DNA of 52,149 nt from contig JALSLJ010000058.1 of NCBI GenBank assembly GCA_026988315.1, positions 1 through 52,149 on the forward strand, in the 5' to 3' direction. Of this stretch, positions 8,432 to 15,858 are shown piece by piece. How positions within the stretch are numbered: the first letter of the stretch is position 1; the number at the start of each line of letters is the position of its first letter. This DNA comes from Sulfurimonas sp. (GTDB taxonomy: Bacteria; Campylobacterota; Campylobacteria; Campylobacterales; Sulfurimonadaceae). The translations under genes and the position numbers were made by a program. The notes beneath the pieces are model-generated. The model searched no databases. It worked only from the letters and a program-made list of their open reading frames with translations, and was not told the origin of the DNA.

Positions 8432-9421
8432 TTGCGTAATTTTTTAATTTTTTTACTATTGGCAACTTCTCTTGTTGCTAAAGAAGCATACAAGCTAGGT
8501 GAGGGGATGCAAGTTCAAGAGCTCCCCTTATATCTTGGGGGTTACATCTCACTAGATTATAAAAGTTCACAAACAGAAGACAGATACAGAATAAATGACC
8601 TTGCCCTTCTTGCTTATGGAAACCACAATAAGTTTTCATATGTAGCAGAACTTGAAGCAAAAGAGTTTTACACAAAAAGATATAGAACAGAAGCTGACAA
8701 TAGCACCTACAACGGCAAACTTTATGTTGAGAGAGTCTATATTAATTATACTTTTAATGAAAACTATCAATTACAAATTGGTAAGTACAATTCCCCTGTA
8801 GGTTTGTGGAATCTTTACCCCATAAATGTTTTTAGAGAAACCACTTCTAGTCCAGCTAGCACTTTTATAATTTATCCAAAATACACAACAGGACTACTTG
8901 CATCTTACCAATCTTTTGGTGATGGGGAACTAAGTATTGACTTGATGTTACAGCACAATGAAGATGTTGATCATGAGTATAATAATTATGAAATAGACAA
9001 ACACTATGGCTTTGGTGTCTCTTATCAAATTGATGATTATTCTGTGAAATTAAATGGTGGTCATTTTCATAAAGTAAATCTTGGTACCCTTGAAGATGAG
9101 CTGTATTATGTACTTGTATCAGCAAAATATGAAACAGATACTTATCAAGTTTTAAGTGAGCTTGGAAAACAAAGATCAAATGACAAAGTAACAACAAACT
9201 ACGCAGGATATATTCAAGGCTTATACCGACTCACTCAAAAGTATAGTGGGGTTGTTAGAGTTGAAGCAATTGATGATAGAGTTAACAAGATAAATGAAGA
9301 GCTTATCATTTTTGGAGTAACATACAGACCGCTTTACCCAGTAGCTATCAAAGGTGAGTACAGATTTCACTCACAAAATAAACTCAATCAATCTTTAATC
9401 TCCTTATCGGTTCTTTTTTAA
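8432..9421 (+). CDS. Outer-membrane porin-like beta-barrel protein
   Basis: A 329-residue exported protein that starts with TTG after a good AAAGGA ribosome site. A signal peptide (about 1-16, ending V-A-K) precedes a mature sequence of amphipathic strands, with G-K-Y-N-S-P-V-G-L-W-N, a motif typical of porins and porin-like proteins, in the first half and a C-terminal S-L-I-S-L-S-V-L-F that fits a barrel-insertion signal ending in phenylalanine. It is the first of three tightly spaced genes with a PstS-like protein and a sensor kinase, so a role in taking up or sensing an anion is plausible. The substrate is unknown. Confidence 0.7.
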   Translation: MRNFLIFLLLATSLVAKEAYKLGEGMQVQELPLYLGGYISLDYKSSQTEDRYRINDLALLAYGNHNKFSYVAELEAKEFYTKRYRTEADNSTYNGKLYVERVYINYTFNENYQLQIGKYNSPVGLWNLYPINVFRETTSSPASTFIIYPKYTTGLLASYQSFGDGELSIDLMLQHNEDVDHEYNNYEIDKHYGFGVSYQIDDYSVKLNGGHFHKVNLGTLEDELYYVLVSAKYETDTYQVLSELGKQRSNDKVTTNYAGYIQGLYRLTQKYSGVVRVEAIDDRVNKINEELIIFGVTYRPLYPVAIKGEYRFHSQNKLNQSLISLSVLF

Positions 9422-9834
9422 TGGTGGGAGTATTGAAAATTATAGTCTCAAGCTTATTAGTCTCAAGCTTGAGCTTAGCATCTGAGTATGTTGTTATTGC
9501 CAATAAAAATATGAAAAACATCTCAAAAGCTCAAATAAAAGCAATATTTTTAAAAAAAATAACCGTAATTGATGAGACTAATGTTGTTCCTCTAAGCCTT
9601 CAAGCTAGAGATTCATTGCGAATGAAATTTGAGAAAGATGTACTTAGGATGAGTTTTACACGCTTAAAAACCCATTGGACGAAACAACACTATAAAGGAC
9701 TTAGACCACCAATAAGTATGCAGTCACAACAGAGCATACTCGCTTTTGTAAAAAAAGTTGAGGGTGCTATAGGCTATATTAATGCCGATAATCTTGATGC
9801 GGATGTCAAAGTAATCTACAGATGGGAAGATTAA
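9421..9834 (+). CDS. PstS-like periplasmic protein (short phosphate-binding-type domain)
   Basis: A 137-residue exported protein of the short PBP-like family related to phosphate-binding proteins (K-x-M-K-N-I-S-K-A-Q-I-K-A-I-F and a late V-E-G-A-I-G-Y-I-N motif). The ATG at 9421 overlaps the porin stop (TAATG). A TTG at 9433, preceded by GGTGGGAG, would give a more regular signal peptide and may be the real start. It is followed without a gap by the sensor kinase gene. It may bind a ligand and present it to the kinase. It is about half the length of true PstS, so it is unlikely to be the binding protein of a full transporter. Confidence 0.72.
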   Translation: MVGVLKIIVSSLLVSSLSLASEYVVIANKNMKNISKAQIKAIFLKKITVIDETNVVPLSLQARDSLRMKFEKDVLRMSFTRLKTHWTKQHYKGLRPPISMQSQQSILAFVKKVEGAIGYINADNLDADVKVIYRWED

Positions 9835-11883
9835 ATGATATTTGATTTTTATAAAAAATCGTTACGGAACAAACTTCTTAGCATATTTATAATTATTGGA
9901 TTTCTACCATTTTTTATACTTTTAGTATATACACTTTTTTTAAGTGAAAACAAAATAGCAAATAAGATTATAGTTGAACAATTTGATAGAACTGAGGTTG
10001 TTATAAAACAGATTGACAACCATATAAATGCTTTGCAAAAAGAGATTAATTTTTTAGGCTCTCTTGAGTTGATGGATGACCTTCTAGCTGATGATATTGA
10101 CAAAAGAATCTCAAGGCTTTTAACTCAAAAAGCAGAAGATTTAAACCTGCAACTTACTTTTTTTGTTGTAGGTGAAGACTCTATAATAATTGCCTCATCT
10201 GACAAAGAATATTTACAAAAAACATATGATTTAAAAAAAGAAAAAGAGCTAAACAATAGCATCTATATAGAAGATACCCTACTCTATATATGTTCAAAGA
10301 TAAATGCCTCTTTTGATGCGACAAAAACACTTGGAACTTTAGTTTTACAATATAATCTCAAAAATTTAGACCTCTTTTTAACACACCAAGATGGCGTACA
10401 TTCTTATATTATAAATCCAAAAATAGCTTTTCTTATAGGGGAGGAGTTAGCACTAGATGTTAGTTTTGCAAACGATGAAAACAGCATTATAAATCATCAA
10501 TATGTTGTGGTGTATAAACACCTATTATCTATACTCCAAGATTGGTACATTGTATATGCAGTTGATAAGAGTGTTGCCTTAGAATTTTTATATGACTTTA
10601 TGAGATTCATGCTTTATATCTCCGTACTTATAATTGCACTTATCATTTATTTGTCAGTGAAACACTCTAAAGAGATAGTAAAACCTATCGAAGAGTTAAC
10701 CACAATTATAAATGACATTACAACTACACACAACTACTCTAAAAGGATTGAAGTTACTTCACAAGATGAGATAGCAATACTCACACACTCTTTTAATCAT
10801 ATGTTACAAACCACTTCTTCTGCACTCAATGAACTAGAAGAGGAAAACAAACGGAGGCTCAAAAGATTTACCCAGCTCATAGAAATTTTCAACACTATTA
10901 TCCAAACGATATCTGAAGAGGAATGTATGGATGTCTCAATTCAAGAGATAAAAAAACTTACAGACAAAGAGAATCTATACTTTGTAAAAGACAGAGATAT
11001 GATTGATACTACAAAATATATAGACCTTTATGTTACCGATTTTGAAAATCAAACAAAGATATATTTTGGCTCTATTGAATTGGGGATAAATACTTTTGCA
11101 GATAAAAATGAAAAAGATTTTTATAACTCTATCGCGTCTATGATAACTCTACAGCTCGATAGAATCAGGCTGATACAAAGAACTCTGAGTGTATCTAATG
11201 CAAAGTCAGCTTTTATCTCAAATATGTCGCATGAATTGAGAACCCCACTTAACGCCATTATCGGTTTTGCCCAGTTTATGATTGCCTATGAGGAACTAAA
11301 CGAAGAGCAACAAGATACACTTGGAAATATAGAATCATCAGCGCAGTATCTTCTAAGTATGATAAATGAAATTTTAGATATTGCAAAAATTGAAGCAGGA
11401 AAAATGGAAGCACATATGAAAGATATAGATGTTTTAGAGCTACTGCAAGAAACCTATGATATGCTCTCTCCTCTAGCATATGATAAAGATTTAAAATTTG
11501 AATTTATCTTTAATAATTTTAAGCCTGAAAACTACTATACTGACCCAAAAATGCTCAAGCAGATTGTTATAAATCTTATCTCAAACGCGATAAAATTCAC
11601 TCAAGAGGGAACTATTGTTTTAGAATTAGCAAATGATGATAAAAATCTTAAAATTAGCATACAAGACACAGGAATTGGGATAGATAACAAAGATATACCT
11701 CAACTTTTCAATGATTTCACTCAAGTGGAAAATGTTATGCAAAAGAAACACAAAGGGACGGGTCTTGGTCTTTCCATAAGTAAAAAAATGGCAGAGATAT
11801 TGGGTGCCAACATCCAAATCTATAGTAAAGGTCTTGGATGTGGTACAAAAACTACACTTTTATTTACAAAAATTAGCAAGTAG
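9835..11883 (+). CDS. Membrane sensor histidine kinase
   Basis: A 682-residue kinase. A membrane segment near 15-35 and another near 255-275 enclose a periplasmic sensing domain of Cache-like size. A HAMP linker follows (about 276-330), then a coiled and GAF-sized region, the HisKA motif H-E-L-R-T-P-L-N-A-I-I-G-F with the phosphorylated histidine at 466, and an ATPase domain with N-L-I-S-N-A-I-K-F-T, D-T-G-I-G-I and G-T-G-L-G-L-S-I. No receiver domain is attached. It begins directly after the PstS-like gene. The OmpR-type regulator at 12498 is the obvious partner, although a gene on the other strand lies between them. Its 3' end overlaps that gene by 24 bases. Confidence 0.92.
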   Translation: MIFDFYKKSLRNKLLSIFIIIGFLPFFILLVYTLFLSENKIANKIIVEQFDRTEVVIKQIDNHINALQKEINFLGSLELMDDLLADDIDKRISRLLTQKAEDLNLQLTFFVVGEDSIIIASSDKEYLQKTYDLKKEKELNNSIYIEDTLLYICSKINASFDATKTLGTLVLQYNLKNLDLFLTHQDGVHSYIINPKIAFLIGEELALDVSFANDENSIINHQYVVVYKHLLSILQDWYIVYAVDKSVALEFLYDFMRFMLYISVLIIALIIYLSVKHSKEIVKPIEELTTIINDITTTHNYSKRIEVTSQDEIAILTHSFNHMLQTTSSALNELEEENKRRLKRFTQLIEIFNTIIQTISEEECMDVSIQEIKKLTDKENLYFVKDRDMIDTTKYIDLYVTDFENQTKIYFGSIELGINTFADKNEKDFYNSIASMITLQLDRIRLIQRTLSVSNAKSAFISNMSHELRTPLNAIIGFAQFMIAYEELNEEQQDTLGNIESSAQYLLSMINEILDIAKIEAGKMEAHMKDIDVLELLQETYDMLSPLAYDKDLKFEFIFNNFKPENYYTDPKMLKQIVINLISNAIKFTQEGTIVLELANDDKNLKISIQDTGIGIDNKDIPQLFNDFTQVENVMQKKHKGTGLGLSISKKMAEILGANIQIYSKGLGCGTKTTLLFTKISK

Positions 11884-12420
11884 TCCTGCTTTTAAAGCAA
11901 GATACTGCTCCTCCCCTTTTAGTTTTTTTACAATCTCTAAAGCAAAACAAATCGCTGTAGCTGGTCCTCTCGATGTCATCACATTACCATCTTCAACAAC
12001 CATCATTTTATCGCCTAAATACCCATCTTCTCTTATCTGCTCCTCCGCTGATGGATAGCAGGTATAGTTATGTTTTAAAACTCCAGCTTTATGAAGAGCA
12101 AAAGGAGCAGCACAAATAGCAGCAATATTTTTGCCCTTGGCATCCATCTGCTTTAAAATATTTTGAACATTAGCATCATCTGCCAAAGCATAAGTCCCAT
12201 CCCATCCACCAGGCAGAATTATCATATCAAGTTCATCTACAACTATATCTTTTATATTCATATCAGCGACAACAGTGATGCTGTTAGCCCCTTTTACATG
12301 AGTATTATCATCTAAAGAGGCGACTAAAATCTCTATCTCTGCTCTTCTTAAAACATCTATGATACTTACAGCTTCTATCTCTTCAAATCCATTTGCTAGT
12401 GGCACTAAAACTTTACTCAT
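11860..12420 (-). CDS. DJ-1/PfpI family protein (YajL-like)
   Basis: A 186-residue protein of the DJ-1/PfpI superfamily. An upstream frame adds eight residues, but the ATG at 12420 is preceded by a perfect AGGAG, so I start there. The nucleophile elbow is A-A-I-C-A-A-P-F-A-L with the catalytic cysteine, and E-E-I-E-A near residue 15 supplies the conserved glutamate. P-G-G-W-D-G and T-S-R-G-P-A-T-A are also family motifs. Family members act as chaperones or in stress or carbonyl detoxification. It runs against the flanking kinase and regulator genes, overlaps the kinase end, and probably has its own promoter. Confidence 0.9.
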   Translation of the reverse strand: MSKVLVPLANGFEEIEAVSIIDVLRRAEIEILVASLDDNTHVKGANSITVVADMNIKDIVVDELDMIILPGGWDGTYALADDANVQNILKQMDAKGKNIAAICAAPFALHKAGVLKHNYTCYPSAEEQIREDGYLGDKMMVVEDGNVMTSRGPATAICFALEIVKKLKGEEQYLALKAGLLANFCK

Positions 12421-12480
12421 AATAACTCCTCTATAGAAAATCAATAATATAGTAGCAAATTTTCACTAATGTAATATTAG

Positions 12481-12497
12481 TATGCTAAAATAAATCC
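12481..12497 (+). promoter_or_regulatory. Extended -10 promoter for a probably leaderless mRNA
   Basis: TATGCTAAAAT at 12481-12491 contains an extended -10 (TG-n-TAAAAT). A start of transcription about seven bases later would fall on or next to the A of the ATG at 12498. There is also no Shine-Dalgarno sequence before this ATG. Both points suggest that the regulator mRNA has no leader. Confidence 0.5.
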
Positions 12498-13166
12498 ATG
12501 AATATTTTAATAGTAGAAGATGACAAATTAACAGCAAAACAGCTTTTTATGCTCCTAAAGAGTGAAAAATATACTTGTGATGTTGCTTTTGGCTACAAAG
12601 AGGCTCAAGAGTATTTAGATAAAAATAGTTACGCACTTATATTACTTGATTGGAACTTAGGTGATGGGGATGGGATGACTTTGCTAAAAGAGCAAAGAGA
12701 TATGGATATAAGTACACCTGTCTTAATGCTCTCAGCTAACTCCGAGATAGATGATAGGGTTTCTGTTCTTGATTGTGGTGCGGATGATTATCTCTGCAAA
12801 CCCTACTCTAATGTAGAGTTGCTTGCAAGGATGCGTGCCCTACTAAGAAGAGAGAGTACACAAAAGTCCTCCCTTATCACAGTTGGCAGAGTTAAACTAG
12901 ACATCAGTGCACATCAGGTTTTAATAGATGATACACCTGTTAAACTTACAAATTCTGAATTTGATCTCCTTGAGCTGTTTATGCAAAACTCAAATATTGT
13001 TCTCACAAGATACCAACTGAGTGAACATATCAACAAAGACAATTACGCTATAAAAAACAGTAACCTTGTAGATGTACACATAAAAAACTTACGAAAAAAG
13101 CTAAATATTGCTGATTTTATACAAAATGTTCGTGGTGTTGGATATAAAATAAATAAATCTTCATAA
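12498..13166 (+). CDS. OmpR-family response regulator
   Basis: A 222-residue two-component regulator. The receiver domain has the acidic pair at residues 8-9, the phosphorylated aspartate D51 in L-L-L-D-W-N-L-G and the lysine in C-K-P-Y. The C-terminal winged helix DNA-binding domain (about 125-220) has the OmpR pattern L-T-N-S-E-F-D-L-L and R-G-V-G-Y-K. It most likely accepts phosphate from the kinase at 9835. Its closeness to the thioredoxin/DUF4266/DUF3570/ApbE operon, 53 bases downstream, suggests it may control that operon, the porin operon, or both. Confidence 0.92.
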   Translation: MNILIVEDDKLTAKQLFMLLKSEKYTCDVAFGYKEAQEYLDKNSYALILLDWNLGDGDGMTLLKEQRDMDISTPVLMLSANSEIDDRVSVLDCGADDYLCKPYSNVELLARMRALLRRESTQKSSLITVGRVKLDISAHQVLIDDTPVKLTNSEFDLLELFMQNSNIVLTRYQLSEHINKDNYAIKNSNLVDVHIKNLRKKLNIADFIQNVRGVGYKINKSS

Positions 13167-13219: not shown

Positions 13220-13678
13220 ATGAAAACACTCATTATCAGTTTACTGCTTCTAACAAATCTATTTGGCTATGAAAAAGGTGAGCTTATCCCTCAACAGATG
13301 GCTTCTCATATTGGATGTGATGGCGATAAAATCTATGTGATAGATTTTTTTGCGTCATGGTGTGGTTCATGTAAAAAAGAGTTACCACTTATCTCTAAGC
13401 TTAATGAACAAATCGATAAAACAAAAGTTGAAATTATCGGTATAGATGTTGATAAAAATGTGGAAAAAGGTATAGCTTTTCAAAATGCTTTAAAAGAACA
13501 AGGGAAGCTAAACTTTAGAGTTATTAACGACCCTCAAAACCTTATCATCTCTGAGTTCGCACCTATTGGGATGCCAACACTTTACTATGTAAAAGATAAA
13601 AAAATAGTTGGGATTATTACAGGTGCCATTGATGAGATAGACCAAAAAATCCTTGCTGATTTAAAAGAGCTGGAGTAG
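13220..13678 (+). CDS. Periplasmic TlpA/ResA-like thioredoxin
   Basis: A 152-residue exported thioredoxin-fold protein. A signal peptide covers about 1-16. The active site is W-C-G-S-C at 47-51 and the cis-proline loop is G-M-P-T-L near residue 118. TlpA-like proteins reduce disulfides in periplasmic proteins. It is the first of four genes whose order (thioredoxin, DUF4266, DUF3570, ApbE) I recognise as recurrent. Its natural target could be the C-terminal cysteine pair of the DUF4266 lipoprotein or cysteines of the DUF3570 protein. Four bases separate it from the next gene. Confidence 0.88.
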   Translation: MKTLIISLLLLTNLFGYEKGELIPQQMASHIGCDGDKIYVIDFFASWCGSCKKELPLISKLNEQIDKTKVEIIGIDVDKNVEKGIAFQNALKEQGKLNFRVINDPQNLIISEFAPIGMPTLYYVKDKKIVGIITGAIDEIDQKILADLKELE

Positions 13679-13681
13679 CCT

Positions 13682-13900
13682 ATGAAAATAACTGTATTTT
13701 TAGCACTTTTTATATCTTTGTTTTTTACTGGATGCATTAAAGATGTGAAGCCTTGGGAAAAAGGCACCTTATCGAAAAAAACTGTAAAAGAGTCTGGTAT
13801 AAACCCCATACTTAATCAATTTGAAGAACACATCTACTTCTCTAAAGAAGCTTCTAAGGGTGGTGGTGGAATTTCTGGCGGAGGTTGTGGATGCAATTAA
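13682..13900 (+). CDS. DUF4266 lipoprotein with Gly/Cys tail
   Basis: A 72-residue lipoprotein. The signal peptide ends in the lipobox F-T-G-C with the lipidated cysteine at 18. The conserved part V-K-P-W-E-K-G-x-L near 22-30 is the mark of DUF4266. The tail (about 60-72) is rich in glycine and ends in C-G-C-N, giving two cysteines at 69 and 71. Such a tail could bind a metal or take part in thiol exchange with the neighbouring thioredoxin. The last ten bases overlap the DUF3570 gene. Function is not established to my knowledge. Confidence 0.85.
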   Translation: MKITVFLALFISLFFTGCIKDVKPWEKGTLSKKTVKESGINPILNQFEEHIYFSKEASKGGGGISGGGCGCN

Positions 13901-15033
13901 GACTATCCCTTGCAGCACTTGCAATAATAACATCTATGAGTGCTCAAGCTGAAGACTTTGTAAGTGTTCAGTTTTTACAATATGATGAAAATGAAAATAG
14001 AACTTCAGTTTCTGCACCATCTATAATGATAAACAAAGATTTTGGAACAGACTATACTCTCAATGTTAGTTTTGTAGCTGATGCAGTGAGTGGTGCTTCA
14101 CGAAACTACTATGATGCTTCAAGTGGAGCTTCTGCTTTTTCTCGTGGAGCAAATGTTGATTCTGCGGATGTTGAGTATAGTAATGTTGAGTACAGCGATA
14201 CTCGCCTTGCAGGAAGTGCCTTACTTACTACTCGTTTTGAGAATCGTGATGAACTTACGGTTGGGATAAGCCGTTCTACTGAGAGTGATTTTTATTCAAA
14301 TGAAGTCTCTGCAGAATATATGCATTGGTTAAGTGCTTCTAAAAACAACTCAATAACTGCAGGTGTATCATACCAATCAAATCAGGTATTAAGACAATGC
14401 CCAACGATTGGAGTAGATGGATGTAGTGGTGCGAGTGAATCTATGGATGTAACAGCTCTCAATGCACAAGTGAGCTACTTTCAAAACATTGACTCTGAGA
14501 GTTATGCAAAGATCTCACTCTTTTACTCAAATGATGATGGATACCTGAGTAATCCTTATCTCAATGTGGTGAGAAACTATACTGAGGGTGGCACTGCTGA
14601 GATAGTTGCTGATACTAGACCTGACTCTAAAATAGCAAGTGGTGTAGCACTCAAATACGCAAATGCACTGACAGATGAGATAGCTTTACATCTTTCATAT
14701 AGATACTATAATGATGATTGGGATATAACTTCACATACACTAGACTCAGATATTTATTATCAAGCAAATGCCGATTGGTTGTTTAAACTCGGGCTAAGAA
14801 GCTATACCCAAAGTGAGGCAAAATTTTATAGTGGTGAAAAAGATTATTTTACAAATGAAATATATGCTTCTAGTGACCAAAGGCTTAGTAACTTTAATGC
14901 TCTTACATATAAAACAGGCCTTGATTACAAGATAGACAAAGACTTAAGTGTAAATTTTGATGCAAATTTTTATGACCAAAGCACAGGACTAAGTGCCACA
15001 TATTTTGTAACTGGAATCACTTATAATTTTTAA
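13891..15033 (+). CDS. DUF3570 outer-membrane protein with three flavinylation-like motifs
   Basis: An exported beta-barrel protein of the DUF3570 family. A longer frame begins at a TTG (13885), but the ATG at 13891 has a perfect GGAGG six bases before it, so I start there (380 residues). The signal peptide ends near S-A-Q-A. Many amphipathic strands and a C-terminal F-V-T-G-I-T-Y-N-F indicate an outer-membrane barrel. Three copies of D-x-x-S-G-A-S occur at 64-70, 75-81 and 176-182. This pattern resembles the ApbE attachment site in NqrC and RnfG (D-x-x-T/S-G-A-T), where FMN is bound to the Ser or Thr. The apbE gene follows with no gap. I infer a flavin-bearing outer-membrane electron carrier. 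Confidence 0.85.
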   Translation: MQLRLSLAALAIITSMSAQAEDFVSVQFLQYDENENRTSVSAPSIMINKDFGTDYTLNVSFVADAVSGASRNYYDASSGASAFSRGANVDSADVEYSNVEYSDTRLAGSALLTTRFENRDELTVGISRSTESDFYSNEVSAEYMHWLSASKNNSITAGVSYQSNQVLRQCPTIGVDGCSGASESMDVTALNAQVSYFQNIDSESYAKISLFYSNDDGYLSNPYLNVVRNYTEGGTAEIVADTRPDSKIASGVALKYANALTDEIALHLSYRYYNDDWDITSHTLDSDIYYQANADWLFKLGLRSYTQSEAKFYSGEKDYFTNEIYASSDQRLSNFNALTYKTGLDYKIDKDLSVNFDANFYDQSTGLSATYFVTGITYNF

Positions 15034-15858
15034 ATGAAAAAGTATATTTACAAATTTGAAGCGATGAGTAGTCCATGTGAACTTACTCTTTATGCAGATA
15101 AAAAAACTCTAGCAGATAAAGCAGCCGAGGCTGTACTGCTAGAGACAAAACGACTAGAGAAGAAATATAACTATTACAAAGAAAACTCCATAGTTTCATT
15201 GATTAACTCTAGAACTACACAGGAGTTGGACGCTGAGACAAAAAGCATACTTCAAAGAGCCAAGCAGTACTATAAACTCACTGATGGACTTTTTGACATA
15301 ACTATTGCAACTATCAAAGAACTGTATAGAAATGAAAAAAACTTAGAAGCGTTTAAAAGTAAAAAAGAGTATTTACTACAGTTTATCGGATGTGAGCACT
15401 TTAGTATCAAGCGAAATAAAATTGTATTTGACAATAAATTTACAAAGATTGACTTAGGTGGATTCGTTAAAGAGTACGCAGTTGATAGAGCTGTTGTTGT
15501 GCTAAAAAAGCATAAAATAACCTCTGCACTTGTAAATTACTCTGGAGACATCTATGCACTAGGGAAAAAACCAGATGGATCTCAATTTACTATAGGGATT
15601 AAAGACCCAAAAAACAGAGAACTCTTTGCTACAGAGGTTTCACTCCAAGACCAAGCGCTAACAACTTCTGCATCTTATGAAAGAAACTATACAATAGGCT
15701 CAAAAACATATTCACATATCATCACAAAAGATGACTCAAAGAAGATGCAAAATTCAGTAAGTATTATCTCTAGTAACTGTGTAGAGAGTGGTGTATTTTC
15801 CACATCTATGATGATAAATAGAGATTTAATAACATCTAATCAAGTTATTATTATTTAA
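15034..15858 (+). CDS. apbE: ApbE-family FAD:protein FMN transferase
   Basis: A 274-residue ApbE protein, which moves FMN from FAD onto a Ser or Thr of a target protein. Family motifs are visible: G-L-F-D-I-T-I, I-D-L-G-G-F-V-K-E-Y-A-V-D, N-Y-S-G-D-I-Y-A-L-G, A-L-T-T-S-A-S and S-H-I-I. It is shorter than most ApbE (about 320-350), and unlike the usual periplasmic lipoprotein form the N-terminus M-K-K-Y-I-Y-K-F-E-A-M has no signal peptide. The usual late D-A-L-x-T motif is changed to E-S-G-V-F-S-T. The ATG follows the DUF3570 stop directly. The expected substrate is the DUF3570 protein. Where the reaction takes place is unclear. Confidence 0.88.
   Translation: MKKYIYKFEAMSSPCELTLYADKKTLADKAAEAVLLETKRLEKKYNYYKENSIVSLINSRTTQELDAETKSILQRAKQYYKLTDGLFDITIATIKELYRNEKNLEAFKSKKEYLLQFIGCEHFSIKRNKIVFDNKFTKIDLGGFVKEYAVDRAVVVLKKHKITSALVNYSGDIYALGKKPDGSQFTIGIKDPKNRELFATEVSLQDQALTTSASYERNYTIGSKTYSHIITKDDSKKMQNSVSIISSNCVESGVFSTSMMINRDLITSNQVIII

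Follow-up and report, generated by a model that had tools for sequence, protein, structure and literature searches.

The Trx/DUF4266/DUF3570/ApbE flavinylation module is known, and the locus analysed here, which lies in a 52,149-nucleotide stretch of Sulfurimonas DNA (the window), represents a variant of it with three sites. The ApbE of this locus has no export signal and an altered active site, suggesting that loading of the flavins probably takes place in the cytosol, ahead of export. The genes encoding the thioredoxin-like protein, DUF4266, DUF3570 and ApbE form one tight operon (Table 1). The end of the DUF4266 gene overlaps the start of the DUF3570 gene by 10 nt and the ATG of apbE (15034) is the base right after the DUF3570 TAA, as expected from the first-pass annotation, which placed apbE behind DUF3570 without a gap. 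The two genes are in frame in the window; a read-through fusion was ruled out, as in other operons they overlap or are spaced out of frame. The window ApbE scored 182.8 bits against PF02424 (cut-off 25.6). Both the C-terminal C-x-C of DUF4266 and its thioredoxin-like partner are present in the operon, and no DsbD was found next to it.

Table 1 Features of the DUF3570 operon and of the preceding gene cassette (positions in the window).
Feature	Position	Strand	Evidence and remarks
Porin_O_P-like protein, first gene of sensory cassette	8432..9421	+	Pfam E=2.5e-4, just under cut-off; conserved neighbour
Small periplasmic-binding-like protein	9421..9834	+	Weak Pfam PBP_like_2 match, E=0.09; conserved neighbour
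Sensor histidine kinase (possible dCache, HAMP, HisKA, HATPase)	9835..11883	+	Pfam; conserved neighbour
OmpR/PhoB-type response regulator	12498..13166	+	Pfam; conserved neighbour
Thioredoxin-like exported protein	13220..13678	+	Pfam Thioredoxin E=1e-12, AhpC-TSA E=8e-12; N-terminal signal, active site WCGSC
DUF4266 small lipoprotein	13682..13900	+	Pfam PF14086 E=5e-18; lipobox FTGC, C-terminal GGGCGCN
DUF3570 outer-membrane beta-barrel	13891..15033	+	Pfam PF12094 E=1.7e-56; 16 strands in model; PDB barrel matches
Flavinylation motif 1, DAVSGAS, residues 64-70, predicted acceptor S70	14080..14100	+	Strict in 23/23 type A; loop after strand 3
Flavinylation motif 2, DASSGAS, residues 75-81, predicted acceptor S81	14113..14133	+	Strict in 20/23 type A; same loop as motif 1
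Cysteine pair C170/C178 beside motif 3	14398..14424	+	Pair in same loop in 18/23 type A
Flavinylation motif 3, DGCSGAS, residues 176-182, predicted acceptor S182	14416..14436	+	Strict in 20/23 type A; strand 7-8 loop
ApbE-family flavin transferase without signal peptide	15034..15858	+	Pfam PF02424 E=1.2e-53
ApbE Glu147 (K-E-Y; K-G-Y in other ApbEs)	15472..15474	+	Alignment
ApbE Gly253 at the Mg-binding/catalytic Asp285 position (V. cholerae numbering)	15790..15792	+	Alignment with 6nxi

The motif D-x-x-S-G-A-S had been reported three times in DUF3570, and all three copies were recovered with an exact match of residues and DNA positions. In 20,000 shuffles of the DUF3570 protein, the expectation for D-x-x-[ST]-G-A-[ST] was 0.006 per protein, and the motif never occurred more than once. 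No other window ORF of 100 aa or longer contains it. The residue that receives FMN is the motif's last Ser/Thr (PMC12052999), so that the predicted acceptors are S70, S81 and S182. The 7-residue motif is sufficient for ApbE; replacing its Asp by Ala has a minor effect, and replacing its Gly by Ala brings the yield down to about half (PMC12052999). The pair C170/C178 represents the sole cysteines of the mature window DUF3570.

Alignment of the DUF3570 proteins delineated three groups: type A (23 proteins), which is the group of the window protein and has a DUF4266 ending in GGGCGCN; type B (15 proteins); and a deltaproteobacterial group. All three motifs were strict together in at least 17 of the 23 type A proteins. 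The entropy of the motif letters in this group was 0.22 bits versus an average of 1.41, the surrounding loops being otherwise variable. In 18/23 type A proteins, exactly one cysteine pair was found in the same loop just before site 3, and the mature protein nearly always contains no further cysteines. Of the five proteins without it, four carry an Asp-rich stretch in its place, and the last lacks both the pair and a strict site 3. In type B, DUF4266 ends in QGGCGCR, site 1 reads D-x-x-x-A-A-S (15/15) and site 2 is strict in 10/15 proteins. In the deltaproteobacterial group, site 2 is the main one present, and its Asp is mostly missing. In the alignment, site 3 sits in an insertion exclusive to type A and absent from the other clades. 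This predicted third site, present in 20/23 proteins of a Campylobacterota clade and usually beside a cysteine pair, looks new and is undescribed as far as the literature searched shows. A search of IMG/VR found no relatives. DUF3570 loops from five loci (L005-L008 and L035) contained runs of 7-11 Asp beside the flavinylation sites, with the cysteine pair replaced in the first four; it is possible that these runs bind metal or calcium.

DUF3570 was present in 28/151 genomes of the family. ApbE was encoded by all 28, compared with 78 of the 123 remaining genomes (p=2e-5). The suggestion that the motifs follow apbE stood in part: within the clade, relatives linked to apbE conserve them, but the other clades lack motif 3. 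As a strict rule of adjacency it was not upheld, with exceptions both ways. A type A DUF3570 (genome G004, L045/L104) has all three motifs, yet the 15 kb read contains no ApbE; 5/15 type B proteins have no strict motif despite an adjacent apbE. Loci L092-L095, a small number of distant sequences from two lineages, have no adjacent ApbE; their motifs are altered, the acceptor Ser/Thr is kept and ApbE is encoded elsewhere.

The first-pass annotation knew of no biochemical proof for the link between ApbE and DUF3570. Such proof was published in eLife in 2021 (Meheust et al.; PMC8238504): in Chlorobium luteolum, the neighbouring ApbE flavinylates DUF3570 at two conserved sites, and it was necessary to replace both serines. 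The proposal that DUF3570 is an ApbE substrate is therefore established for a homologue. The same study described Trx/DUF4266/DUF3570/ApbE clusters with or without DsbD, 316 DUF3570 clusters being DsbD-free (PMC8238504). Since both the flavinylation and the clusters were published in 2021, the claim is not new at the level of the family. The window operon has the four families, the gene neighbourhood and the motif in common with these clusters. Unlike them, it encodes a DUF3570 with three conserved sites instead of two and a cysteine pair by the third, as well as an ApbE that has no export signal and differs at the metal site; unlike their DsbD systems, it has no DsbD. The strong conservation of all three sites in one clade supports the idea that DUF3570 may carry up to three FMN. 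As predicted here for DUF3570, multi-flavinylated FMN-bind proteins hold several FMN per protein, with a proposed longer-range electron transfer (PMC8238504). The latter are series of soluble FMN-binding domains, mainly from Gram-positive bacteria, whereas the DUF3570 sites belong to loops of one barrel.

Two AlphaFold2 models were built, from seven sequences only. DUF3570 was modelled as a 16-strand barrel with a mean pLDDT of 67, and the model of a deltaproteobacterial homologue showed the same start of the barrel. In agreement with an outer-membrane location, DUF3570 has a signal peptide (approximately residues 1-20, MQLRLSLAALAIITSMSAQA), an even number of strands, a C-terminal Phe and a barrel fold. 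The PDB structures matching the model were generic barrels such as OmpG and FadL; a PDB sequence search with DUF3570 returned no match. In the model, sites 1 and 2 lie in the strand 3-4 loop (mature protein 46-84) and site 3 in the strand 7-8 loop (mature protein 149-162), all on the long-loop side. The acceptor serines were thus placed outside the strands, in loops that share one side of the barrel and were modelled with low confidence (pLDDT <50). With the N and C termini placed in the periplasm, the long-loop side would be outside and, by convention, the three sites would be displayed on the outer face of the cell. Their position on the loop side implies that ApbE, whether cytosolic or periplasmic, must act before barrel insertion.

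The conserved core of the window ApbE begins 10 residues past an ATG that abuts a stop codon, and the protein therefore cannot carry a signal peptide. Using a rule based on hydrophobicity and length rather than SignalP, signal peptides were found to be missing in 30/32 ApbEs at Campylobacterota DUF3570 loci, the two exceptions being an additional, canonical ApbE in L113 and the ambiguous L118. By the same rule, a signal peptide was present in 49/52 canonical ApbEs elsewhere in Campylobacterota genomes and in 16/16 deltaproteobacterial DUF3570-linked ApbEs. An in-frame stop usually lies 9-29 codons upstream of the signal-less ApbEs, leaving no room for a signal peptide, and the partner genes in the same Campylobacterota operons carry export signals. 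The ApbE of a Vibrio cluster (L052) was likewise signal-less. For ApbE clades A and B, the tree favoured two losses of the signal over one, a difference short of significance (AU p=0.096). As far as the literature searched shows, a signal-less ApbE at DUF3570 loci is undescribed, and this arrangement, called from sequence, looks new. The authors of the homologue study called their ApbE signal-peptide-truncated (PMC8238504), so the signal-less arrangement is not universal. In that study, flavinylated protein was present in the insoluble pellet after signal-less forms of DUF3570 and ApbE had been produced together in the cytosol of E. coli (PMC8238504). The window ApbE is signal-less like the cytosolic ApbE of Klebsiella pneumoniae, which modifies a soluble fumarate reductase (PMC12052999). 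The Klebsiella target is cytosolic, whereas the likely target of the window ApbE is a signal-bearing outer-membrane barrel. It is very unlikely that the window enzyme mainly serves another, cytosolic target and that the motifs of DUF3570 serve a structural or different purpose. Although close ApbE relatives without DUF3570 do adjoin small signal-less QSGAS/QSSAS proteins, several with EF-hands, a homologous DUF3570 is a proven substrate of its adjacent ApbE (PMC8238504), the motif letters are the conserved letters in variable loops, and the window contains no other motif-bearing ORF of the size searched.

The window ApbE belongs to the same family as the enzymes in the FmnB and Vc_ApbE structures (PMC8906456; PDB 7esa, 6nxi) and keeps the equivalents of Ser241 and His257 (Vc numbering). 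It differs from them at two positions: the Mg-binding Asp301/Asp285 is replaced by Gly, and the helix Gly four residues after Ala187 by Glu. The Asp285 to Gly change was always paired with the Glu in K-E-Y (30/30 full-length members of the window's ApbE clade, made of type A ApbEs and the relatives beside small QSGAS/QSSAS proteins). All canonical ApbEs in which both positions were readable have Gly and Asp there. The Mg ligands of FmnB are Asp301 (equivalent to Asp285), Ser304 and Ala187, and Ala replacements at residues contacting FAD or Mg greatly reduced or abolished its activity (PMC8906456). Given these losses and the replacement of the Mg-binding Asp by Gly, the window ApbE is a member of the family by descent and a putative flavin transferase. 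In the alignment, the new Glu lies four residues, or one helical turn, after Ala187. This position points to a metal-ligand swap in which the Glu in K-E-Y would compensate for the lost Asp285 ligand. The changed metal site, as read from the alignment, also looks new and is undescribed as far as the literature searched shows.

The loss of Asp285 from the adjacent enzyme could also mean that flavinylation takes place in the periplasm: an exported ApbE would modify DUF3570 before assembly, the adjacent ApbE-like protein having lost or changed its activity. A canonical, signal-bearing ApbE (C8) is encoded in the window's genome, and known ApbE targets such as NqrC and RnfG are modified outside the cytosol. 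We consider this explanation unlikely, because nearly all operons seen have apbE beside DUF3570, with Ser241 and His257 still in place, and because type B ApbEs have no signal despite a canonical active site. It is also at odds with four genomes (G093, G123, G046 and G020, 94-100% complete) that showed one ApbE only, which is signal-less; in G093 (98% complete) and G123 (100% complete), this sole ApbE lies beside a DUF3570 with an intact site.

We therefore slightly favour the hypothesis that FMN attachment is cytosolic and precedes Sec export. The signal-less ApbE would stay in the cytosol, draw FAD from the cytosolic pool and attach FMN to Ser70, Ser81 and Ser182 of the still-unfolded DUF3570. 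The modified chain would then be exported via Sec, and BAM would assemble the 16-strand barrel; the passage of FMN-modified chains through SecYEG is a proposed step only. All three loops bearing FMN would come to lie on the loop side, which is conventionally taken as the cell surface. Periplasmic thiol carriers, namely the thioredoxin-like protein, the C-x-C lipoprotein DUF4266 and a DsbD encoded elsewhere in the genome, would supply them with electrons. Expression would be under the control of the linked porin/binding protein/histidine kinase/response regulator cassette. The analysis itself shows the genes, their conserved motifs, the missing signal peptide, the substitutions in the active site, the modelled position of the sites in loops and the conservation of the cassette. 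We infer FMN attachment at this locus, its compartment, the surface exposure, the electron flow and the partners; electron transfer to the outside by DUF3570 is plausible. The complete scenario, a dedicated cytosolic ApbE in which the K-E-Y Glu compensates for Asp285 to Gly and which would load three FMN before Sec to create a flavin redox surface without periplasmic FAD, is put forward tentatively. The supply of FAD to periplasmic ApbE was called obscure in a 2025 review (PMC12052999). A signal peptide dropped from the enzyme and kept on the substrate suggests that this supply problem may be avoided by modification before export. If this is true, Sec and BAM must tolerate chains bearing bulky flavins, and FMN would be held at fixed sites on a Gram-negative outer face as a flavin counterpart to surface multiheme cytochromes.

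The purpose of the module is a separate matter. Instead of contributing to respiration or extracellular electron transfer, it could build or repair envelope proteins through thiol/flavin chemistry or assist iron assimilation, and this can hold with either compartment of FMN attachment. The thioredoxin-like and C-x-C partners, the DsbD beside a type B operon and the VIT1 iron transporter found in 25 DUF3570 clusters (PMC8238504) agree with such a role. We regard it as rather doubtful, since Pfam recognised no maturation or iron gene within the window operon itself and all the modelled FMN sites point to the loop side rather than to the periplasm.

The porin/binding-like/histidine kinase/response regulator cassette (8432-13166) precedes the window operon. 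It recurs in full by the DUF3570 operons of L036, L183, L195, L197 and L198, and in part in L193 and L196. The cassette was also found beside the related ApbE loci L141-L143, so that it accompanies both kinds of signal-less ApbE loci. The window's genome contains two further operons, C6, which is of type A, and C27, which is of type B. In the latter (L106:10-4535), the Trx/DUF4266/DUF3570/ApbE genes are directly followed by DsbD, and the DUF3570 contains DAVTSAS and DAITAAS, with no strict motif.

Loci L141-L149, L151-L153 and L155 encode small signal-less proteins whose N terminus contains QSGASG or QSSASG (for example L153:2390-2932 and L145:3719-4234, minus strand). Many have an EF-hand pair and a C-terminal L-M-x-x-I-L-S-A-Y stretch, and their genes usually directly precede those of signal-less ApbEs carrying the Glu/Gly swap. 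These proteins are candidate new ApbE substrates, and we found no paper on them. An exported cytochrome-like protein with a SCTMCHAGGQFPALTEMGR start, a barrel-like remainder and no Pfam match was encoded in three of these loci (L141:1490-2833; L142:2486-3811, minus strand; L143:1447-2757). Its gene precedes the small QSGAS gene and apbE, and heme and flavin genes thus adjoin in L141-L143.
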